Shown: in pieces, positions 1-35,275 of the stretch
How the letters are laid out: the number at the start of each line of letters is the position of its first letter
Position numbering within the stretch: position 1 is the first letter of the stretch
From: Candidatus Melainabacteria bacterium
Lineage (GTDB): Bacteria; Cyanobacteriota; Vampirovibrionia; Obscuribacterales; Obscuribacteraceae
Length of the DNA: 35,275 bases
NCBI GenBank assembly: GCA_027451745.1
Contig: DAIDIP010000026.1
Coordinates: 1 to 35,275 of the forward strand
Direction: 5' to 3'
The notes under the pieces: model-generated
What the model was told of the DNA's origin: nothing
Database searches by the model: none
The model's input: only the letters and a program-made list of their open reading frames with translations
Made by a program: the position numbers and the translations under genes

Positions 1-648
1 CTAGTTGCCGGTGTCAGCATAATAACGCGCTCGATCTGAATCTGCGCGGGCGCGATCGGCAGCTGCTCTTGCTCGATCATCATATTGTTTAGCAGTTGGG
101 TCACCATTTTGAGATGCATAATATACTCTGTCCGACGCCTGCCTAGCCGCTTCGGATGCATAGTAAGCTTCAGATGCATTGCTTTGTCTATTGCCTTTAT
201 CTTTGTCATAGCGGGCTCTTTCCTCGGCATCACGAGCTTTACTTGCCTGATTTTCTGCTTCTTGCCAATCACTATAAGCGGTACTCGAACCCCATTTATT
301 GTTATTTTCTTTGGTGGAGTTTGTTTGTGGCGATCCACCAAATAACATACGTAAAAACTGCTGGCGTCCATTGACAGGAATATTCGGTTGTCCAACTTGC
401 CGCATTTGATTAAAATAAGGACTATTGATTTGGGGGTTGTATTGCATAGGCTGCTGCGGAGGCTGTTGTAACTGTTGCAACATTGGCTGTTGAATGGGTT
501 GCATGCCAGAAGGAGGCACATTAGACCAATTAGAATTATCAACCTTATTGAGCATGTTTTCTAATTGTTGATTTTGTTGAGCATGCACACCTTGCACAAA
601 TGATAACGCCAAGCAAAATGATATGAATAATGTATTTTGTCTTTTCAT
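1..648 (-). CDS. Secreted Gln-rich protein with Ala/Arg/Asp helical tail, unknown function
   Basis: Complete 215-residue ORF. Residues 1-23 form a clear signal peptide (basic MKR start, hydrophobic core, VHA cleavage site before QQ), so the protein is exported. Residues about 24-95 are rich in Gln, Pro, Met and Asn and look disordered. Residues about 127-215 are dominated by Ala, Arg, Asp, Tyr and Glu with RARA/DRAR-type words, which suggests a long charged helix or coiled coil. The start codon overlaps the stop codon of the heptosyltransferase gene by four bases (ATGA at 645-648), so it is translationally coupled as the last gene of the envelope operon. I recognise no family. A periplasmic or surface role tied to the LPS genes is inference from position only. 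Confidence 0.7.
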   Translation of the reverse strand: MKRQNTLFISFCLALSFVQGVHAQQNQQLENMLNKVDNSNWSNVPPSGMQPIQQPMLQQLQQPPQQPMQYNPQINSPYFNQMRQVGQPNIPVNGRQQFLRMLFGGSPQTNSTKENNNKWGSSTAYSDWQEAENQASKARDAEERARYDKDKGNRQSNASEAYYASEAARQASDRVYYASQNGDPTAKQYDDRARAAADRARADSDRARYYADTGN

Positions 649-1688
649 ATTTTTATAGCTGTCTTTTCATAAATTCCTATAGCTGCTTGTATAACAATTT
701 GCGGGTTTAATTGGGTCAGGCATTCTCTTTTGTCTTCACAAGTTTTTTTGTAATGGCATGGTCTACATGATAAAGAAGAATCATAAATTGCTGCATGGTT
801 ATCACCAAATGGTCGCCAACGTACAGGGTCTGTGGGTCCAAATATAGACAGGGTGGGCGTTCCTACCGCCGCTGACAAATGCGATGGTCCACTATCTACA
901 CATATAGCAAGTTGCATAAGCTTGTACAAGGCCATGCTTTCACGGATAGATAATTGCCCTGCTAAATTTATACATTTAACACCACTTGAATCAATAATTT
1001 CTTGATTGAGCTTGATATCAGATGGAGCACCGGAGAGTACGGGTGTAAAGCCGTGCACATTGTGCATTTGTTCAATAATCTTTGCCCAACTTGCATTTGG
1101 ATACATTTTATCTGGATGAGCAGCGGCGGCATGAATAAGCAAATATTTTTTTGTTTCTTGAGACAAAAGTGATTTTGCTGTGATTATTTCTTCTCTAGTT
1201 GTCCAGGCTTCTAAATAATTATCTGCAATTGGAATATTGGCAGCCCGCAAGACATCCAAGGTGGATTCAACTTCGTGTTTATTAGTATTCCATGGTGCAT
1301 TGGTAGTCAAAAGAAATGACTTTATACCGCCGCCATAGCCTATACGTTTCTTCGCTCCAGATAGAAAAGCTAATAAAGCAGCTGAAGCAGAACGCTTAAG
1401 AACAAAAACTACATCGTATTTTTTTTCTTTGAGAATTGAAAGATATGACCAAAAAGATTTTGCTTTACCTTGACCTTGATCATATTTATGGAAACGAGTT
1501 GTATCATATTCGATCAATTCATTTATATATGGACAATTTTCTAAGACTTGGCCGCTTTGTGGTCCCACTAAAACATCAATTTTGGCGTCAGGATAATAGT
1601 TATGCAAATTGCGCAAAAATGGCACAGTAAGGATTGTGTCGCCTATAAAGCGATAGCGAATTACTAATATTTTTTTTCCATTATCCAT
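645..1688 (-). CDS. Glycosyltransferase family 9 (LPS heptosyltransferase-like)
   Basis: 347 residues, the usual size for ADP-heptose:LPS heptosyltransferases (WaaC/WaaF/RfaQ group), which add heptose to the inner core of lipopolysaccharide at the cytoplasmic face of the inner membrane. Visible family features are the N-terminal KILVIRYRFIGDTIL start of the first Rossmann-like half, and in the second half the DSGPSHLSAA and GTPTLSIFGPTDP stretch that binds the nucleotide sugar, followed by a Cys-rich segment near the C terminus. It lies 3 bp downstream of lpxK and overlaps the next gene by 4 bp. Family membership is firm. The exact acceptor, and whether heptose or another sugar is moved, cannot be told from sequence alone. 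Confidence 0.88.
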   Translation of the reverse strand: MDNGKKILVIRYRFIGDTILTVPFLRNLHNYYPDAKIDVLVGPQSGQVLENCPYINELIEYDTTRFHKYDQGQGKAKSFWSYLSILKEKKYDVVFVLKRSASAALLAFLSGAKKRIGYGGGIKSFLLTTNAPWNTNKHEVESTLDVLRAANIPIADNYLEAWTTREEIITAKSLLSQETKKYLLIHAAAAHPDKMYPNASWAKIIEQMHNVHGFTPVLSGAPSDIKLNQEIIDSSGVKCINLAGQLSIRESMALYKLMQLAICVDSGPSHLSAAVGTPTLSIFGPTDPVRWRPFGDNHAAIYDSSLSCRPCHYKKTCEDKRECLTQLNPQIVIQAAIGIYEKTAIKI

Positions 1689-1691
1689 TGT

Positions 1692-2789
1692 CTATACTGT
1701 TCTGTATTGTATATTGCATAGTTTAATCAATGAGATCAAATCGAGCGGTTCGCCTATCCATTGTGTTTGCAAATTTATAGCCATTAACCGTGAGCTTATG
1801 GGGGAATTGCTCAGCTTCACCATATCCTTGGCGGTAGTAAGAAAGTATTCAGCACCTTTGGATTTACGTAGAGCTTCTAACTGTTCAATGTCTTTGACCG
1901 AATAATTATAATGATCATCATACTCGACAGCTTCAAGAATATTAGCACCAAGAGATAGAACTGTTTGTTTGAATCCGTAGGGTTTAGCTATGCCGCTAAA
2001 GATTACGACTGGCAATCCTTTTATTTTATCAAGCGATGATTGAATTGGTTGTTCGTTAATTTCCTGCTCAATTGATACTGGCTGGAATCTGCACAAGCTT
2101 ATTTTGCAACTGGGAGAATATTGCCAAACAAAACTTTTGAATTTATCAATTTTTGCTTGTTCAAAGGCACTAGGGATTTTGGTAATCACTACGTGTTGGG
2201 CTCGCTTCAGTGCTGAGCCTGGTTCTCTTAGTCGACCTACAGGAAGCAATGTGTCATTCCATGGTGGGCAATCATAATCGAGTAGAACAATGTCATAATC
2301 ACGTTCAAGTGGTAGATGCTGAAAACCATCATCTAATAGAAGAATTTCACAGTCGTATTCACTAATTGCCTTTTGTCCAGCAATAAAACGATTTTTATTT
2401 GTGATGACCACCGCTTTTGGCAGCATTCTAGCCATCATTAATGGCTCATCACCCGATTCTTCAATTGAGGCAAAATTGTTGTGCCCATCACCTACAACTG
2501 TACAAGATGTGGCATTAGATCTTTTGTAACCGCGAGTGAGGATACCTACTTTTATATTGTTCGCTATTAGCCTATTGGCTAAATCAATAATAATAGGTGT
2601 TTTGCCTGTGCCACCTACTGATAGATTACCAACGCTTATTACCGGTTTAGATAATCGACTAGAAGATAGCAATTGATTTTTATATGCTAGCTGACGCAGA
2701 TCAATGACTCCCTGATAAGGCAAGGTTAGCGGGCTCAGTAATTTGATCGCTAAACGCTCTACTAATGTATGAGGGTTTCCCCAGGTCAT
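1692..2789 (-). CDS. lpxK: Tetraacyldisaccharide 4'-kinase LpxK
   Basis: 365 residues. LpxK phosphorylates the 4' position of tetraacyldisaccharide-1-phosphate to make lipid IVA, working at the inner membrane with ATP. The diagnostic P-loop is at residues about 52-64 (SVGNLSVGGTGKT), followed by the TRGY motif, the DDGFQH motif in the middle and the conserved GRLREP segment. The N terminus is amphipathic and hydrophobic, as expected for membrane association. The gene overlaps waaA by four bases (2786-2789) and is followed after 3 bp by the heptosyltransferase, so kinase, Kdo transferase and heptosyltransferase follow the pathway order of lipid A and core assembly. Presence of LpxK implies a lipid A based outer membrane. 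Confidence 0.95.
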   Translation of the reverse strand: MTWGNPHTLVERLAIKLLSPLTLPYQGVIDLRQLAYKNQLLSSSRLSKPVISVGNLSVGGTGKTPIIIDLANRLIANNIKVGILTRGYKRSNATSCTVVGDGHNNFASIEESGDEPLMMARMLPKAVVITNKNRFIAGQKAISEYDCEILLLDDGFQHLPLERDYDIVLLDYDCPPWNDTLLPVGRLREPGSALKRAQHVVITKIPSAFEQAKIDKFKSFVWQYSPSCKISLCRFQPVSIEQEINEQPIQSSLDKIKGLPVVIFSGIAKPYGFKQTVLSLGANILEAVEYDDHYNYSVKDIEQLEALRKSKGAEYFLTTAKDMVKLSNSPISSRLMAINLQTQWIGEPLDLISLIKLCNIQYRTV

Positions 2790-4201
2790 AGTGTTATTTT
2801 CTCGCCAATTTTTATTTCATTATCAATCGAACTATTCTTTTTACTTTCTAATAAGCCAGCAATGGCATTGATTGCTTTTGCTACTGCACCACGGTTATTT
2901 TCTAACCATTGTTGACCAGTCTTGCCCATTTGTTCGCGCAATTTGGCATCATTCAACAAGGTAAGGATTGCATTTTCAACTTCGTTATCGCTATAGCCAA
3001 TAAGCAATGCCTTTTCTTTGCTGAGTATAGTTGCAGATTCTTTAGTTTTAAATAAATGTTGTCCGCATACAACAGGTACAGCATATAAATATGGTTCAAG
3101 TAAATTATGACCACCAACTTTAGCAATGCTGCCGCCAACAAAAGCCACAGAAGCAATGGCATAAAAATTGCCCAATTGGCCAATTGTGTCAAGCAGATAA
3201 ACATCATTTGGCTCGCTAAGTTTTTCATTCTTGCTATAGCGTTTTGCGCTGCATCCATTGTTTTCTATTATTTTGGCTACTTGATCAAAACGTTCTGGAT
3301 GCCGAGGAGCAATTATAAGTTTGATGCTTTTATTGTTGTTAATACTATTTTCGGCTACAGCTTGTTTATAAGCATTCAGGACTACTTTTTCCTCATCAGC
3401 GTGCGTAGACCCAGCTATTAAAACCAAATCATTTTTATTAATGCCGAGTTGTATTTTTAAATTTTCTATGGCTTCGGCATTCAACAAGGCTGGCCAATCA
3501 TATTTTAAATTTCCAAATATCTGCACTGGCAAGTCATTTCCAGCTACTTCTTTATATCGCTGACTTTCCGCTTCAGACTGAGCACCAACTAGAGATAGTT
3601 TATTTATGATTGGTCCAAAAAACCATTTGCTTAGCTTGTATCTGCTAAATGATCTTGGGGACATACGTGCATTGACCATTGTTATTGGTATTTTTTTAGT
3701 GGCACATGCATCAATAAAATTAGGCCATAGTTCAGTTTCGAAAATAATGACTAAGTCTGGCTCAAGCGTGGTCAAAAAATAGTCAACAATCTTAGGAAGA
3801 TCAAAAGGGAAATATATAACTTGGGCAAAATTACCAACTCGTTTTTTTGCTAATGATTTTCCAGCCTCAGTGGTTGTAGAAACAATCAGTGGTTTATGGG
3901 GATATTTATTTCTAATTGCTTCAATTAAAGGATACGCACCGTTAAATTCACCTACAGAAACAGTGTGAATCCATATACAACCTTTACATTTAATAAGGTT
4001 AGCTTTTAACGAGGCATCAATAAAACCAAATTTTTGTTTTAAGCCAGCCCTTGTTTTAGGCACAAAGAGCAAAACAGGACTCATTAAAAGCAATCCACCT
4101 TTGAGTAAAGAAGAATAAGCAGTAAGTGAAAGTTTTTGAGAAATCGTTGACGGCATTGAATTATATTGACCATTGTCTAAGATGAAGACTGCGTTTTCCA
4201 T
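2786..4201 (-). CDS. waaA: 3-deoxy-D-manno-octulosonic acid (Kdo) transferase WaaA/KdtA
   Basis: 471 residues as drawn. It transfers Kdo from CMP-Kdo to lipid IVA at the inner membrane (GT30 family). An N-terminal hydrophobic anchor (about residues 30-47) is followed by WIHTVSVGEF, which holds the catalytic Glu of GT30 enzymes. The GT-B C-terminal domain shows GSTHADEE, APRHPERF and GGHNLLEP. The ATG at 4201 puts the start inside the upstream epimerase gene (25-bp overlap). An internal ATG at 4156 would give 456 residues and a start closer to the family norm. Neither has a good Shine-Dalgarno sequence, so the start is uncertain. The 3' end overlaps lpxK by 4 bp. Confidence 0.94.
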   Translation of the reverse strand: MENAVFILDNGQYNSMPSTISQKLSLTAYSSLLKGGLLLMSPVLLFVPKTRAGLKQKFGFIDASLKANLIKCKGCIWIHTVSVGEFNGAYPLIEAIRNKYPHKPLIVSTTTEAGKSLAKKRVGNFAQVIYFPFDLPKIVDYFLTTLEPDLVIIFETELWPNFIDACATKKIPITMVNARMSPRSFSRYKLSKWFFGPIINKLSLVGAQSEAESQRYKEVAGNDLPVQIFGNLKYDWPALLNAEAIENLKIQLGINKNDLVLIAGSTHADEEKVVLNAYKQAVAENSINNNKSIKLIIAPRHPERFDQVAKIIENNGCSAKRYSKNEKLSEPNDVYLLDTIGQLGNFYAIASVAFVGGSIAKVGGHNLLEPYLYAVPVVCGQHLFKTKESATILSKEKALLIGYSDNEVENAILTLLNDAKLREQMGKTGQQWLENNRGAVAKAINAIAGLLESKKNSSIDNEIKIGEKITL

Positions 4202-30821: not shown

Positions 30822-33725
30822 ATGGCTGCGGTAACTATAGACGCTGAAAGCATGCAAAGTAGTGATGATATTATCGTGCGCGGGGCACGACAACATAATC
30901 TCAAAAATATAAGCTTAGAGATCCCTCGTAACAAATTTGTCGTAATCACTGGTGTTAGTGGTTCTGGAAAATCATCTTTAGCCTTCGACACGATATTTGC
31001 TGAAGGACAAAGAAGATACATAGAATCATTGTCGGCATATGCACGGCAATTTTTGGGGCAACTAGATAAGCCTGATGTTGATAGCATAGAAGGTTTAAGC
31101 CCTGCTATTTCAATAGACCAAAAATCTACTAGCCATAATCCCAGATCCACTGTTGGTACAGTTACTGAAATATACGATCATTTGCGATTGCTCTATGCTC
31201 GTGTTGGCACGCCACATTGCCCAGAGTGTGGAAGACTGATTAATCCACAAACAGTAGACCAAATTGTTGACCAGGTTCTCAATTTACCAACCAACAGCAA
31301 AATTCAAATCCTTGCACCTTTGATAAGTGGCCGCAAAGGTGAATATCAAGCACTCTTGCAAGATTTACGCAAAGAAGGTTTTGCAAGGGTAAAAATAGAC
31401 GGAGAAATTCTTGCTTTAGAAGATGAAATATCTCTAGATAAAAATAAAAAACATACAATAGAATTAGTTATTGATCGCTTAGTTATAAAAGCTAGCATAC
31501 AAGCAAGATTGGCTGATAGTCTTGCTTTAGGTCTAAAATGGGGACATTCTAGCGTCCTTGTAGATATTCTTACTCAAAATGGCGAAGATAGCAAAGAAAG
31601 CAAACAATTACTTTTTTCTGAGCAATATGCTTGTGCTTATTGCAATATAAGTTTTTCAGAAATCACTCCTCGTATATTTAGCTTCAATAGTCCATATGGT
31701 GCTTGTGCTGAATGTCACGGACTTGGCTCTACTACAGAAGTTGATGCTAGTTTGGTTGTACCAGATCCAAAAAAGAGCCTAGAAGAAGGCGCCATTTATC
31801 CTTGGTCCAAAACAGGAAATCCATACTACAGCCAAATACTAAGCTCGGTAGCTAAACACTATAAATTTAGCATGGAGACCCCATTTGGAAAATTGACCAA
31901 GGCACAACGAGACACAATTTTGTACGGTTCAGGCGACGAAAACATAAAGCTTGTATATGAATCTTATGATGACAGCGGTTTGACCTATTATCGAAAACCC
32001 TTTGAAGGTGTGATCCCTAATTTGAAAAGACGCTATGAAGAATCTCAATCTGAAAGAGTTAAGCAAGACTTAGAAAATTATATGACAGAGGCTATTTGTG
32101 ATGAATGCGGGGGCAATCGTCTTAAACCAGAAAGCCTAGCTGTAAAAGTTGGTGAGCTATCGATAGCTCATCTGTGTGCATTGTCTGTTGTAAAAGCACA
32201 AGAATTTTTTAGAACCCTATCTGATAAATTATCGGCAAGACAAAATACAATAGCCCATCAAATACTGATCGAAATTTCTGCCAGGCTAAAATTTTTAAGT
32301 GATGTCGGACTAACCTATCTTACTTTGGATCGTAAAGCGAGCACATTGTCTGGCGGTGAAGCTCAGCGTATCAGGCTTGCTACTCAAATTGGCTCTGGAT
32401 TATCGGGGGTTTTGTATGTACTTGACGAACCTTCTGTAGGTTTGCATCAACGTGATAACAATCGCCTTGTTGCTACACTAAAACATCTGCGCGATCTAGG
32501 AAATACTTTGTTGGTGGTGGAGCACGATGAAGAAACAATCAGACAAGCCGATTGGTTAATTGATATTGGACCAGGGGCAGGACTGCATGGCGGTTATGTT
32601 GTAGCTCAGGGCAAATTAGAGGATATTGCCAATTGCAAAACATCTTCTACTGGCGCATATTTATCTGGACGTCAGCAAATACATATACCTGATAAACGCA
32701 GACAGGGCAACGGCATGAAAATAAAAATTGTCGGCGCCTCGTTGAATAATTTGAAAAATATTGATGTAGAGTTTGGTTTGAATAAATTTATAGCCGTCAC
32801 TGGTGTTAGTGGCTCTGGTAAATCGACTCTAGTAAATGATCTTTTTTATCAATATCTTCGCCATTTTTTAAATGGGACGGTGCCTAATCCTAAAGGGTTA
32901 ATTAAAGTTGAGGGTGTCGATAATATTGACAAAGTCATAGATATTGACCAATCACCAATTGGGCGCACACCAAGATCTAATCCTGCCACTTATACCGGTT
33001 TATTTGATGTGGTAAGAGATGTTTTTGCCACTACCCGCGAAGCACAAGCGCGAGGATACTTACCGGGCCGCTTCTCTTTCAACGTTAAGGGCGGACGTTG
33101 CGAAGCATGCAGTGGCGAAGGAATGAATGAGATTGAATTGAATTTTCTACCCTCAGTTTTTGTACATTGCGAGGTATGCAAAGGTGCAAGATATAACAGA
33201 GAAACTTTAGAGGTCAAGTTCAAAGGCAAATCCATTGCCGATGTTTTAGAAATGACTGTTGAGGAAGGGCTTTCCTTTTTCACTAACGTACCAAAGGCTC
33301 AAGCTAAACTTGCCACTTTAAAAGAGGTAGGTTTAGACTATATAAAACTAGGACAACCGGCTACCACCCTTTCGGGAGGCGAAGCTCAACGGGTAAAATT
33401 AGCCGAACAATTATCAAAGCGAGCCACAGGCAAAACTATTTATATTTTAGATGAACCAACGACCGGTTTATCATTTGCTGACATAGATAAGCTCCTGCAA
33501 GTGCTTAATAAATTGGTCGATTCTGGCAATACTGTTCTTGTCATTGAGCACAATTTGGACGTTATAAAACAGGCTGACTGGATTATCGATTTGGGACCAG
33601 AAGGCGGCGATGGAGGGGGCTCAATTATTGCCCAGGGCACTCCTGAGCAAATAGTTCTTAGTAGAAACTCCCATACTGGGCAATTTTTACGCGCCTGCCT
33701 TAATTTGAGCACCATTTCTATTTGA
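30822..33725 (+). CDS. uvrA: UvrABC system protein A
   Basis: 967 residues from the ATG at 30822, with a TTG one codon earlier. UvrA finds bulky DNA lesions and loads UvrB in nucleotide excision repair. Both ABC ATPase modules are complete: Walker [10 protein letters not shown] and GVSGSGKST, signatures [12 protein letters not shown] and [12 protein letters not shown], and Walker B regions ending in LDEPS and LDEPT. The zinc modules CAYC...CAEC (with [15 protein letters not shown]) and CEAC...CEVC are intact. The family start [15 protein letters not shown] is present. The stop codon overlaps the Fur-box-like palindrome before fur. Confidence 0.97.
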
Positions 33726-33746: not shown

Positions 33747-34190
33747 ATGCAACATCTATCTTCCTATGATCCAATAATCGAGAATCTGCGCAAGCGGGGG
33801 CATAGAATTACAGCCCAACGAGAAACAATTTTGCAGATTTTTAAAGAGGAACCACATGGAAATCATCTTTCCGTGGAAGAATTACATAGTAAGCTTCTCG
33901 AAAAGGGTTATAGGGTCAGTTTAGCAACCACATACAGAACGCTAAAACTCCTTTCGGTACTCGGACTGCTACGTGAACTGGATTTTGCCGAAGGTCATAA
34001 GCACTACGAACTAAAACAAGACACTTTACCCCATCAACACATTATTTGTACTAGTTGTAATATGACATTAGAATTTGAAGATCATTTTCTCGAAACCATC
34101 GGCCAAGAAATTGCCTCTAAGCATCATTTTCAGGTCATTGATGCCCAATTCAAAATTTTTGCGCTATGCCCTCGCTGCAAAGACAAATAA
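33747..34190 (+). CDS. fur: Fur family metal- or peroxide-responsive regulator
   Basis: 147 residues from the ATG at 33747, with a TTG one codon earlier. The N-terminal winged helix has LRKRGHRITAQRETIL and the recognition helix region SLATTYRTLKLL. The metal-binding half has GHKHYE, HQHIICTSC with the first Cys pair, and CPRC near the end as the second pair, the structural zinc site of Fur and PerR. Family members repress iron uptake (Fur), zinc uptake (Zur) or peroxide defence (PerR); the subtype is not clear from sequence. It follows uvrA by about 20 bp and may be cotranscribed with it and with the next gene, 17 bp downstream. Confidence 0.85.
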   Translation: MQHLSSYDPIIENLRKRGHRITAQRETILQIFKEEPHGNHLSVEELHSKLLEKGYRVSLATTYRTLKLLSVLGLLRELDFAEGHKHYELKQDTLPHQHIICTSCNMTLEFEDHFLETIGQEIASKHHFQVIDAQFKIFALCPRCKDK

Positions 34191-34207
34191 GGAATTAAAG
34201 CGCAGTT

Positions 34208-35275
34208 ATGACTAAACCTATTAATCCGTGGAAATTACCCGAATTTAGAGCAGGACAAAACATTGTTTGCCGCGTAGAGAGGCAAGAGCCAGATGGCTAC
34301 GCTGTAACGATATCAAAAGAAAACTTGCCTGGTTTTTTACCGACTGAAGAGCCTTTGCGCATTGGCGAGGAAGTTCTAGCCCAATTTGTTTGTGTAACTA
34401 ACAATCGCATATTACTTACAACACGATTTTCAAGTATTACCAATCAAAAACGACCTTTTCAATACGTTGACTGGGAGCAACAACTCAGTCAATTAGGCAC
34501 AGAAGAAGGACAGGCGAACTCTCCATCTCAATTAAGCGAAGAAGAGGCCGCTTTTATGGTATGGGCACAGCAAGCTAGTCCTGCAAGTATCCATCTTCGC
34601 AGAGCAACAGATTTAATTCTTCCGCCTCTAAACCCAGCAGATGTAGAGAATTTTACGATAGCTGAGCACGATGTGGAATGGCTCATTACTGATTTGGAAG
34701 GCGGTATGCGAAGTGGTTGTTTGAAAGCCTCCTGCGAGAGCAAACTTTCCCGAAGTGCAATGCTGCTTTATCGCGGCAGATGCGTGGGCTGTATATATAG
34801 CAACAAACAATATCCAGAATGTCCACCACAAGAAGAAGCGCTACAAAATACACTTTGCGATCTAAAAAATCCAGACACTCAGGTTAAGCTCTATGATTTA
34901 CCTGAAAGTTTAGTCCTAGCATCTTCAGCACTATTTCTTGGTTATCCTCTTGAACATAAAGAGAATCCAGATCCTAGAGATGCTTTTGACTATACACTTG
35001 AATGGCTAGACAGTAAAAAATATACAGCTTGTCTTACTATTGGATTAACTAATCGACTTGGACACTGCTTTGTTTATGTGTATCGCGGTCTTTATGTAGG
35101 AGCATTCTACGTCGAAGACCAAACGTTCACCCAGAATAGAGATGTCGTCTACAATATTTTTCAAGAAGATCCACAAGCCAGTTTAAATGTACAAATTCTG
35201 CCAAGTGAGATGACCTCGGCAGCTGTGCGGTTTGGCTATAGTCTAAGTATTGCAACCAAGCAGATATTCTTATAA
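34208..35275 (+). CDS. S1/OB-like domain protein with two copies of a ~100-residue repeat
   Basis: 355 residues, complete at the window edge. Residues about 14-74 look like an S1/OB RNA-binding fold (RAGQNIVCRVERQ, then PGFLPTEEPLRIGEEV, then NNRILLTTRF). A polar linker follows. Residues about 151-249 and 257-350 are clearly duplicated: DVEWL / YTLEWL, LLYRGRCVGCIYSNKQ / YVYRGLYVGAFYVEDQ, YDLPES / QILPSE and FLGYPL / RFGYSL. The repeat resembles PATAN/DUF4388 domains of bacterial signalling proteins, but that link is tentative. No signal or membrane segment is present. It starts 17 bp after fur on the same strand, so it may be under the same metal control. The function is unknown. Confidence 0.7.
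   Translation: MTKPINPWKLPEFRAGQNIVCRVERQEPDGYAVTISKENLPGFLPTEEPLRIGEEVLAQFVCVTNNRILLTTRFSSITNQKRPFQYVDWEQQLSQLGTEEGQANSPSQLSEEEAAFMVWAQQASPASIHLRRATDLILPPLNPADVENFTIAEHDVEWLITDLEGGMRSGCLKASCESKLSRSAMLLYRGRCVGCIYSNKQYPECPPQEEALQNTLCDLKNPDTQVKLYDLPESLVLASSALFLGYPLEHKENPDPRDAFDYTLEWLDSKKYTACLTIGLTNRLGHCFVYVYRGLYVGAFYVEDQTFTQNRDVVYNIFQEDPQASLNVQILPSEMTSAAVRFGYSLSIATKQIFL

Follow-up and report, generated by a model that had tools for sequence, protein, structure and literature searches.

A protein of 355 residues is encoded at the very end of the window (the whole stretch of 35,275 nucleotides that was analysed, from a member of the order Obscuribacterales), directly behind a gene for a Fur family regulator. 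The locus raises the question of what this protein is made of, and of whether its position behind fur has a meaning for its function. The protein joins two known but diverged domains in a new way, and this combination is restricted to one order, in which it is general. The genes concerned and the signal between them are the following.

30822..33725, + strand: uvrA, the first gene of the cluster (homologues at 65-83% identity)
33747..34190, + strand: fur, Fur family regulator of 147 aa counted from the ATG, 21 bp after uvrA
34189..34194, + strand: AAGGAA, putative ribosome-binding site of the fusion gene, read from the sequence and overlapping the fur stop codon
34208..35275, + strand: S1-PATAN-like fusion gene, 355 aa (open frame; full-length orthologues at up to 56% identity)

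The product of the first gene is taken to be UvrA. The product of fur, scanned from an upstream TTG, passes PF01475 (E 4.5e-33, 114.4 bits versus a cut-off of 23.1), and its best NCBIfam model is a Fur model, which it matches with 94 bits versus an equivalog cut-off of 220. The fusion gene is complete, with an ATG at 34208 and a TAA at 35273-35275 that takes up the last bases of the contig; it is not truncated by the contig end, given that the orthologues stop at about the same point. Since fur ends at 34190, the distance of 17 bp between the two genes that was given in the initial annotation is confirmed, and the tight spacing by itself suggests that uvrA, fur and the fusion gene may be read as one transcript. 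With the consensus tried, the window contains 6 Fur-box-like sites versus 4.5 expected, 30 of 100 shuffles having as many, and none of the sites lies just upstream of uvrA or fur. A Fur box in the window was rejected because this count is not in excess over the shuffles, and promoters and terminators in the window were rejected for the lack of a clear excess. A conserved tie to the downstream gene was also rejected, given that this neighbor differs among the nine loci listed (by names given by eye, RNase G/E-like in five, valyl-tRNA-synthetase-like in two, and others in two).

The window protein alone gave no matches in Pfam, NCBIfam, or PDB sequence searches with E up to 5, and scans of the orthologous members together with a PDB profile search gave scattered weak matches or none. 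The family is recognised by neither Pfam nor NCBIfam. Its parts were delimited from predicted structure and alignments as follows.

34229..34432, + strand: S1-type OB domain, residues ~8-75 (AlphaFold model, structural matches, and profile match to S1 repeats)
34433..34597, + strand: low-confidence linker, residues ~76-130, with a short helix from the conserved W89 (pLDDT and alignment)
34646..34942, + strand: PATAN-like repeat 1, residues ~147-245 (AlphaFold C-terminal model; paralogue matches to PF14332)
34943..35200, + strand: PATAN-like repeat 2, residues ~246-331, then a conserved RFGxSLSM-like tail (model and repeat-repeat hhalign)

The architecture computed is thus an S1-type OB domain on a flexible linker, followed by a rigid pair of homologous repeats. 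The AlphaFold model of the fusion, made with 37 sequences, has a mean pLDDT of 85.6, and its OB domain has strands at residues 18-27, 30-35, 40-44, 55-64, and 67-72, with block pLDDT of 87-96 over residues 11-70. The top structural matches of this domain are S1-type and other OB domains, with Z of 8 to 9.3 over 59-77 residues, values that are at the edge of what the tool takes as more than a common arrangement although the matches are consistently S1/OB; they include eIF2-alpha (2a1a, Z 9.3, 65 aa, 2.8 A) and ribosomal S1 (4nng, Z 8.9, 74 aa, 2.4 A). The initial annotation had described the N-terminal part as S1/OB-like and had proposed structure prediction as a check; the five-strand model and the S1/OB structural matches agree with it, and an OB fold is present. 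Comparison of the N-terminal profile with 44 S1 repeats of relatives, collected by a profile search seeded with one repeat, gave Prob 95 and E 3.7e-8 in hhalign, with none of 100 column shuffles scoring as high, while seven other profiles (among them Fur, FeoA, PATAN, and the repeats) gave Prob <1. The domain has in common with the S1 domain (PF00575; ribosomal protein S1, eIF2-alpha, the S1-domain protein 3go5, and GSP13) the five-strand OB fold, a GFLP-type loop, and a final LLS-type strand. It differs in being below Pfam detection (the Pfam S1 cut-off is not reached by the window protein, which has no Pfam match, and there is no S1 match among 26 aligned members), in having no helix assigned between its third and fourth strands, in the replacement of two aromatic positions, in its conserved Cys21 and Cys62, and in being a single copy joined to signalling-type repeats.

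The two aromatic positions bear directly on what this domain may bind. S1 columns 17 and 20, the aromatics of which are presumably RNA-contact residues, are each F in 22 of the 44 S1 repeats of relatives. At column 17, the fusion family has G in 28, D in three, and K in one of 32 rows, and at column 20 it has A in 20 and S in six of 33 rows, with others in the rest. In these alignments, the canonical S1 aromatic platform is replaced in the fusion family, and a canonical RNA-binding S1 domain is disfavored because the F positions are here mostly G and A. The net charge of the N-terminal domain is +2 to +5 in 25 of the 26 rows of the fur-type group, the exception being the window protein, with 0; these rows are made of the window protein, 21 linked rows, L051, L052, and the second copy of L061, near-identical rows included. 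The C-terminal part is acidic where the N-terminal domain is basic (25 of the 26 rows), and in the other S1-bearing group the N-terminal net charge is -4 to +1 (six rows).

Domain 1 of ribosomal S1 binds protein, not RNA. It is possible, though somewhat unlikely, that the S1-type domain of the fusion binds protein, and that the whole is a two-ended scaffold, which could for example join some other complex to a pilus motor or a small GTPase as its PATAN partner. Such a scaffold is favored by the replacement of the two aromatic positions while Y31 (32/33 rows) and R67 (29/33) are conserved in the OB domain, and by the observation that half of the 44 S1 repeats collected from relatives also have no aromatics there, including the first repeat of the S1 protein (for example L118 62-133). 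The basic character of the domain in most fur-type rows argues against it.

The cysteines provide another possible function. Cys21 and Cys62 of the OB domain are found in 30 and 29 of 33 rows, respectively, and Cys171 and Cys195 of repeat 1 in 36 and 35 of 37 rows. A redox or metal sensor that works through these four residues would be in line with this conservation (29/33 to 36/37 rows) and with the adjoining fur gene, but the pairs are mostly lost singly, which makes such a sensor very unlikely. In the N-terminal pair, both cysteines are present in 27 of 33 rows, one is lost in five, and both are lost in one; in repeat 1, both are present in 34 of 37 rows and the remaining three have lost one. 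A disulfide or metal pair of Cys21 and Cys62 is disfavored, given that five of the six departing rows lose one cysteine only, and the case for a Cys21-Cys62 disulfide is weakened by these single losses.

The linker that follows has pLDDT <50 at residues 76-87, 97-109, and 121-129, and its length varies widely among orthologues, with W89 being kept in 27 of 31 rows. When modelled by itself, the C-terminal part reached a pLDDT of 92.3 and a pTM of 0.88. In this model the same order of elements is seen twice (strand, helix, three strands, helix, strand); repeat 2 has one additional short strand, and further helices follow each repeat. The internal duplication proposed in the initial annotation is significant both in the single protein and by profile. 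Residues 146-246 and 247-355 of the window protein align with a Smith-Waterman score of 59, which none of 2000 shuffles reached (maximum 50), and the profiles of the two repeats match with Prob 96.4 and E 1e-9 in hhalign, with none of 100 column shuffles as high. The W-L, YRGxxVG, LP, and GY motifs reported there are found in both repeats of the alignment.

The kinship of these repeats with PATAN comes mainly through paralogues that lack the S1-type domain. All five S1-less paralogues scanned match PF14332 with E of 4.2e-5 to 4.2e-3, within model positions 8-47, and repeat 1 of the fusion family matches the first repeat of these paralogues with E 7e-44 in hhalign, for profiles that share five rows. 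Because repeat 1 is homologous to a repeat of proteins that match PF14332, both repeats of the fusion probably descend from PATAN (DUF4388) domains and have diverged from them. No scanned member reaches the PF14332 cut-off of 25 bits, the best being an S1-less paralogue with 24 bits, and a PF14332 match was not found for the window protein itself; at E up to 1, the model is matched by eight of the 35 members of the third alignment. Two of three paralogues of the window genome match it (E 0.026 and 0.22). Direct comparison with a profile made of 16 genuine PATAN domains of related genomes gave E 2.3e-4 and Prob 45 for the pooled repeats and E 7.8e-4 for repeat 2 (in both cases none of 100 shuffles as high), E 0.033 for repeat 1 (two of 100 shuffles as high), and E 4.4e-3 for the first repeat of the S1-less paralogues. 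Controls came close to these scores, with E 1.8e-3 and Prob 15 for FeoA versus the pooled repeats and E 4.9e-3 and Prob 7 for S1 repeats versus PATAN, so that the direct profile comparison is suggestive only. The initial description of the repeats as PATAN-like therefore stands through the paralogues and, weakly, through direct profiles, while at the level of the Pfam cut-off it does not.

Fold searches with the repeat module gave no PDB and no viral matches with E up to 1e-3, and the best fold match, 8brf (YopQ; VIA Z 6.2, 83 aa, 3.3 A), is not convincing. One PATAN sequence searched versus the PDB also found no clear relative; for this reason, the repeat module is not taken as a new fold, and the fold searches could hardly decide on a PATAN fold. 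The element order of the repeats agrees with a by-eye reading of PATAN sequences, and the repeats have this order and the TG-x-L and G-x-x-V-type motifs in register with PATAN (DUF4388, PF14332; PatA, PixG, and PixE). The founding paper on PATAN names an alpha-helical insertion in its title. The fusion differs from PATAN in its tandem pair with an invariant S181-R182 and in the absence of a receiver domain from the window protein. In these genomes, genuine DUF4388 matches belong to separate genes, five of them in the window genome. The archaeal DUF2226 (PF09987) is matched weakly by two of the window-genome paralogues (E 0.0088 and 0.044, below cut-off) and by one of 26 and two of 35 aligned members (best E 0.023 and 0.007, respectively, again below cut-off).

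In the published descriptions consulted, PATAN domains bind the pilus motor PilB (PixE with PilB1) and PATAN genes lie near mglA, so that PATAN modules appear as protein-binding modules of pilus and chemotaxis-type signalling and not of RNA biology (PMC9090330, PMC7690835, PMC10519157, PMC4316618). This binding of proteins is a further point in favor of the two-ended scaffold, but the conserved neighbors of the fusion gene are uvrA, fur, feoA, and a zinc-ribbon gene, and neither pilB nor mglA was recognised by eye downstream in the nine loci listed. In a study of Anabaena, the PATAN response regulator all2165 is in a table of FurC-affected genes (PMC12282138), which for the Fur link of the fusion is a lead only. 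Full-text literature searches, which covered few subscription journals, found no paper linking PATAN with FeoA or with an S1 domain, and none on Obscuribacter with FeoA or on Obscuribacterales with Fur.

A protein search of 60 genomes, that of the window included, gave matches in 39 and none in the 21 genomes of the other orders of the class, and in a draw of 292 genomes of the phylum the window genome matches while none of the other 291 does. By profile search, the family (fusion or S1-less paralogue) is present in 53 of 53 Obscuribacterales genomes, and the S1-type domain in 51 of them, the two others (G001 and G348) being 70-71% complete. These computations show that the fusion family is confined to, and general in, the order Obscuribacterales; L050, L069, and L071, labelled Actinobacteria, Chloroflexi, or Proteobacteria, are taken as mislabelled bins. 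Three alignments were made, the first with 26 of 30 proteins, the second with 36 of 57 listed proteins in addition to that of the window, and the third with 35 of 37 stretches. Identity with the window protein is 41-56% for the full-length relatives aligned and 37% for a second copy in tandem. In a tree of 35 rows, S1-less and S1-bearing rows separate (100/100), whereas the rows linked to fur are spread over more than one clade (four changes).

Several variants of the modules were also seen. Order genomes have up to eight matches to the S1-type domain, and L034, L035, L036, and L037 contain frames of 105-112 codons that are mainly this domain alone. Two tandem fusion genes lie behind fur in L061:5998-8213, the second of them highly diverged, and in L056:5797-6303 the zinc-ribbon-like protein encoded between feoA and the fusion gene has a diverged version of this S1-type domain itself, which makes it a module shared by two neighbors. 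The window genome (G000) has three S1-less paralogues of the repeat module elsewhere (L031, L032, and L033).

The conservation of synteny with fur, the other check that had been proposed at the outset, was determined in 52 loci. Five have <1500 bases upstream (L048, L052, L070, L076, and L092), nine were judged to be paralogues by score and neighborhood (L079, L085, L086, L087, L089, L090, L091, L093, and L094), one is a relocated orthologue, and 37 are fur-linked. The fusion gene is therefore behind fur in 37 of the 38 testable loci, on the same strand and with at most small genes between, the sole true exception being the relocated orthologue L051; given that several loci are near-identical, the 37 are not independent events. 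Upstream of fur, uvrA is found in 35 of these 37 loci, the other two either lying at the edge of a contig or showing no match. In one genome of the genus of the window, uvrA, at L137 (G001:C80) 187-3190, matches in two overlapping frames, which points to a frameshift or to an error of assembly.

Between fur and the fusion gene, the window has neither of two small genes that are common at this place in other loci. A FeoA-type ORF lies there in 34 of the 37 fur-linked loci and a zinc-ribbon-like ORF with CxxC motifs in 33, so that the usual cluster, which is new in this analysis, is uvrA-fur-feoA-zinc-ribbon-fusion. It is seen among loci L043-L084, for example with the two small genes at L059:5424-5904. 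The FeoA model used at the loci was made of 14 motif-picked sequences from the same loci, and for this reason its E-values are not independent; PF04023 is independent, and it is passed by the FeoA-type protein of L059 (E 1.6e-10, 41.3 bits versus a cut-off of 23). One of the 34 is a diverged FeoA-like copy (L068), from a genome (G017) in which PF04023 is not matched. The zinc-ribbon call stands for an ORF of at least 35 codons with at least two CxxC motifs, sought at the locus only, and two such proteins scanned had no Pfam match over cut-off. For L052, counted as cut, there is a candidate counterpart contig in G018 with a FeoA match just upstream. In G008, the genes uvrA, feoA, and zinc-ribbon form a cluster that has no fur, and the fusion lies on a different contig.

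This conservation of order could be passive, the protein being a housekeeping one whose place behind fur is an accident of an ancient gene arrangement. The presence of the repair gene uvrA in the same block is compatible with this, as is the survival of the fusion gene after relocation in G008, and some paralogues with and without the S1 domain are found elsewhere in repeated neighborhoods: L079, L087, and L089 are S1-bearing paralogues of the other group with an enoyl-CoA-hydratase-like gene downstream, and L091 and L093 are S1-less paralogues between seryl-tRNA-synthetase-like and diaminopimelate-decarboxylase-like genes (all names by eye). Nonetheless, the order persists in 37 of 38 testable loci over a range of divergence in which identity with the window protein drops to ~40%, and a passive neighborhood is regarded as unlikely.

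FeoA-domain proteins (PF04023) are beside fur both here and in known fur-feoA iron loci, the difference being that in this order feoB is elsewhere and that a zinc-ribbon-like protein and the S1-PATAN fusion follow. PF04023 is matched in 21 of 27 order genomes. Both FeoA and FeoB are matched in 20 of the 27, neither in six (the window genome included), and FeoA alone in one, a co-occurrence with a Fisher p of 2e-5 that ignores kinship and incompleteness (three of the six Feo-less genomes are 65-71% complete). Among genomes from the remaining orders of the class, a FeoA match lies ~2 kb or less from a FeoB match in six of the seven genomes with both, whereas in Obscuribacterales this is the case in none of 20, with the two on different contigs in 19 and 575 kb apart in one. 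From this difference it seems that feoA departed from feoB and joined the fur cluster in Obscuribacterales.

The fusion could then be a dedicated Feo accessory, forming with FeoA and the zinc-ribbon protein a cytosolic module for the control of iron uptake. The frequencies of the FeoA-type and two-CxxC ORFs in the gap between fur and the fusion, and the co-occurrence of FeoA with FeoB, are in favor of this. However, the fusion is kept in five of the six genomes without FeoA and FeoB matches, the contig of the sixth (G001) ending inside fur, and in G008 feoA and the zinc-ribbon gene are together without the fusion; this reading is accordingly judged improbable. In the five readable Feo-less genomes, the gap between fur and the fusion gene is 17, 214, 243, 304, or 308 bp, versus 575-1490 bp in the other 33 loci, and none of the five has the zinc-ribbon ORF in it; G017 (L068) keeps the diverged FeoA-like ORF. 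In the window genome itself, neither FeoA nor FeoB is matched and the locus lacks a zinc-ribbon gene, yet the fusion is present. Since the fusion persists without Feo matches, it is not merely a Feo part, and an obligate part in Feo transport was rejected.

The reading that is tentatively preferred, with considerable doubt, is that the fusion may be an adaptor of Obscuribacterales, made together with Fur from the uvrA-fur unit, with its OB end on RNA or an RNA machine and its PATAN-like pair on a partner. The fusion would be co-produced with Fur from the uvrA-fur transcription unit, and the S1-type domain, which is basic in most orthologues, could dock either on RNA itself or on a machine bound to RNA, for instance the ribosome, while the paired PATAN-like module would bind a partner protein. 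The amount of this tether may follow the Fur operon, and the tether would link translation or RNA metabolism to a partner in iron status or stress response. The S1 profile match, the basic domain, the fur linkage, and the protein binding by PATAN support the adaptor. It is weakened by the charge of 0 of the domain in the window protein, by the replaced aromatics, and by the absence of an excess of Fur boxes; the relocation in G008 and the fur-linked rows not forming one clade also weaken it, as do PATAN scores below the cut-off with a FeoA control that comes close. The proposal of the initial annotation that the protein is a metal- or redox-controlled RNA regulator is, at this point, a hypothesis.

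A more far-reaching version of the adaptor, and an improbable one, is a lineage-defining, post-transcriptional arm of the Fur regulon, in which iron would control the recruitment of a PATAN-type signalling adaptor to RNA or ribosomes by the S1-type domain, and FeoA and the zinc-ribbon protein would be partners from the ancestral state. Full-text searches, in a collection with few subscription journals, found no literature that links metal regulation, PATAN, and translation. The family is present in every one of the 53 genomes of a non-photosynthetic cyanobacterial order, with ties to fur and to a feoA that is distant from feoB. If its S1 end binds RNA or ribosomes, this family would link metal regulation, PATAN-type modules, and translation.
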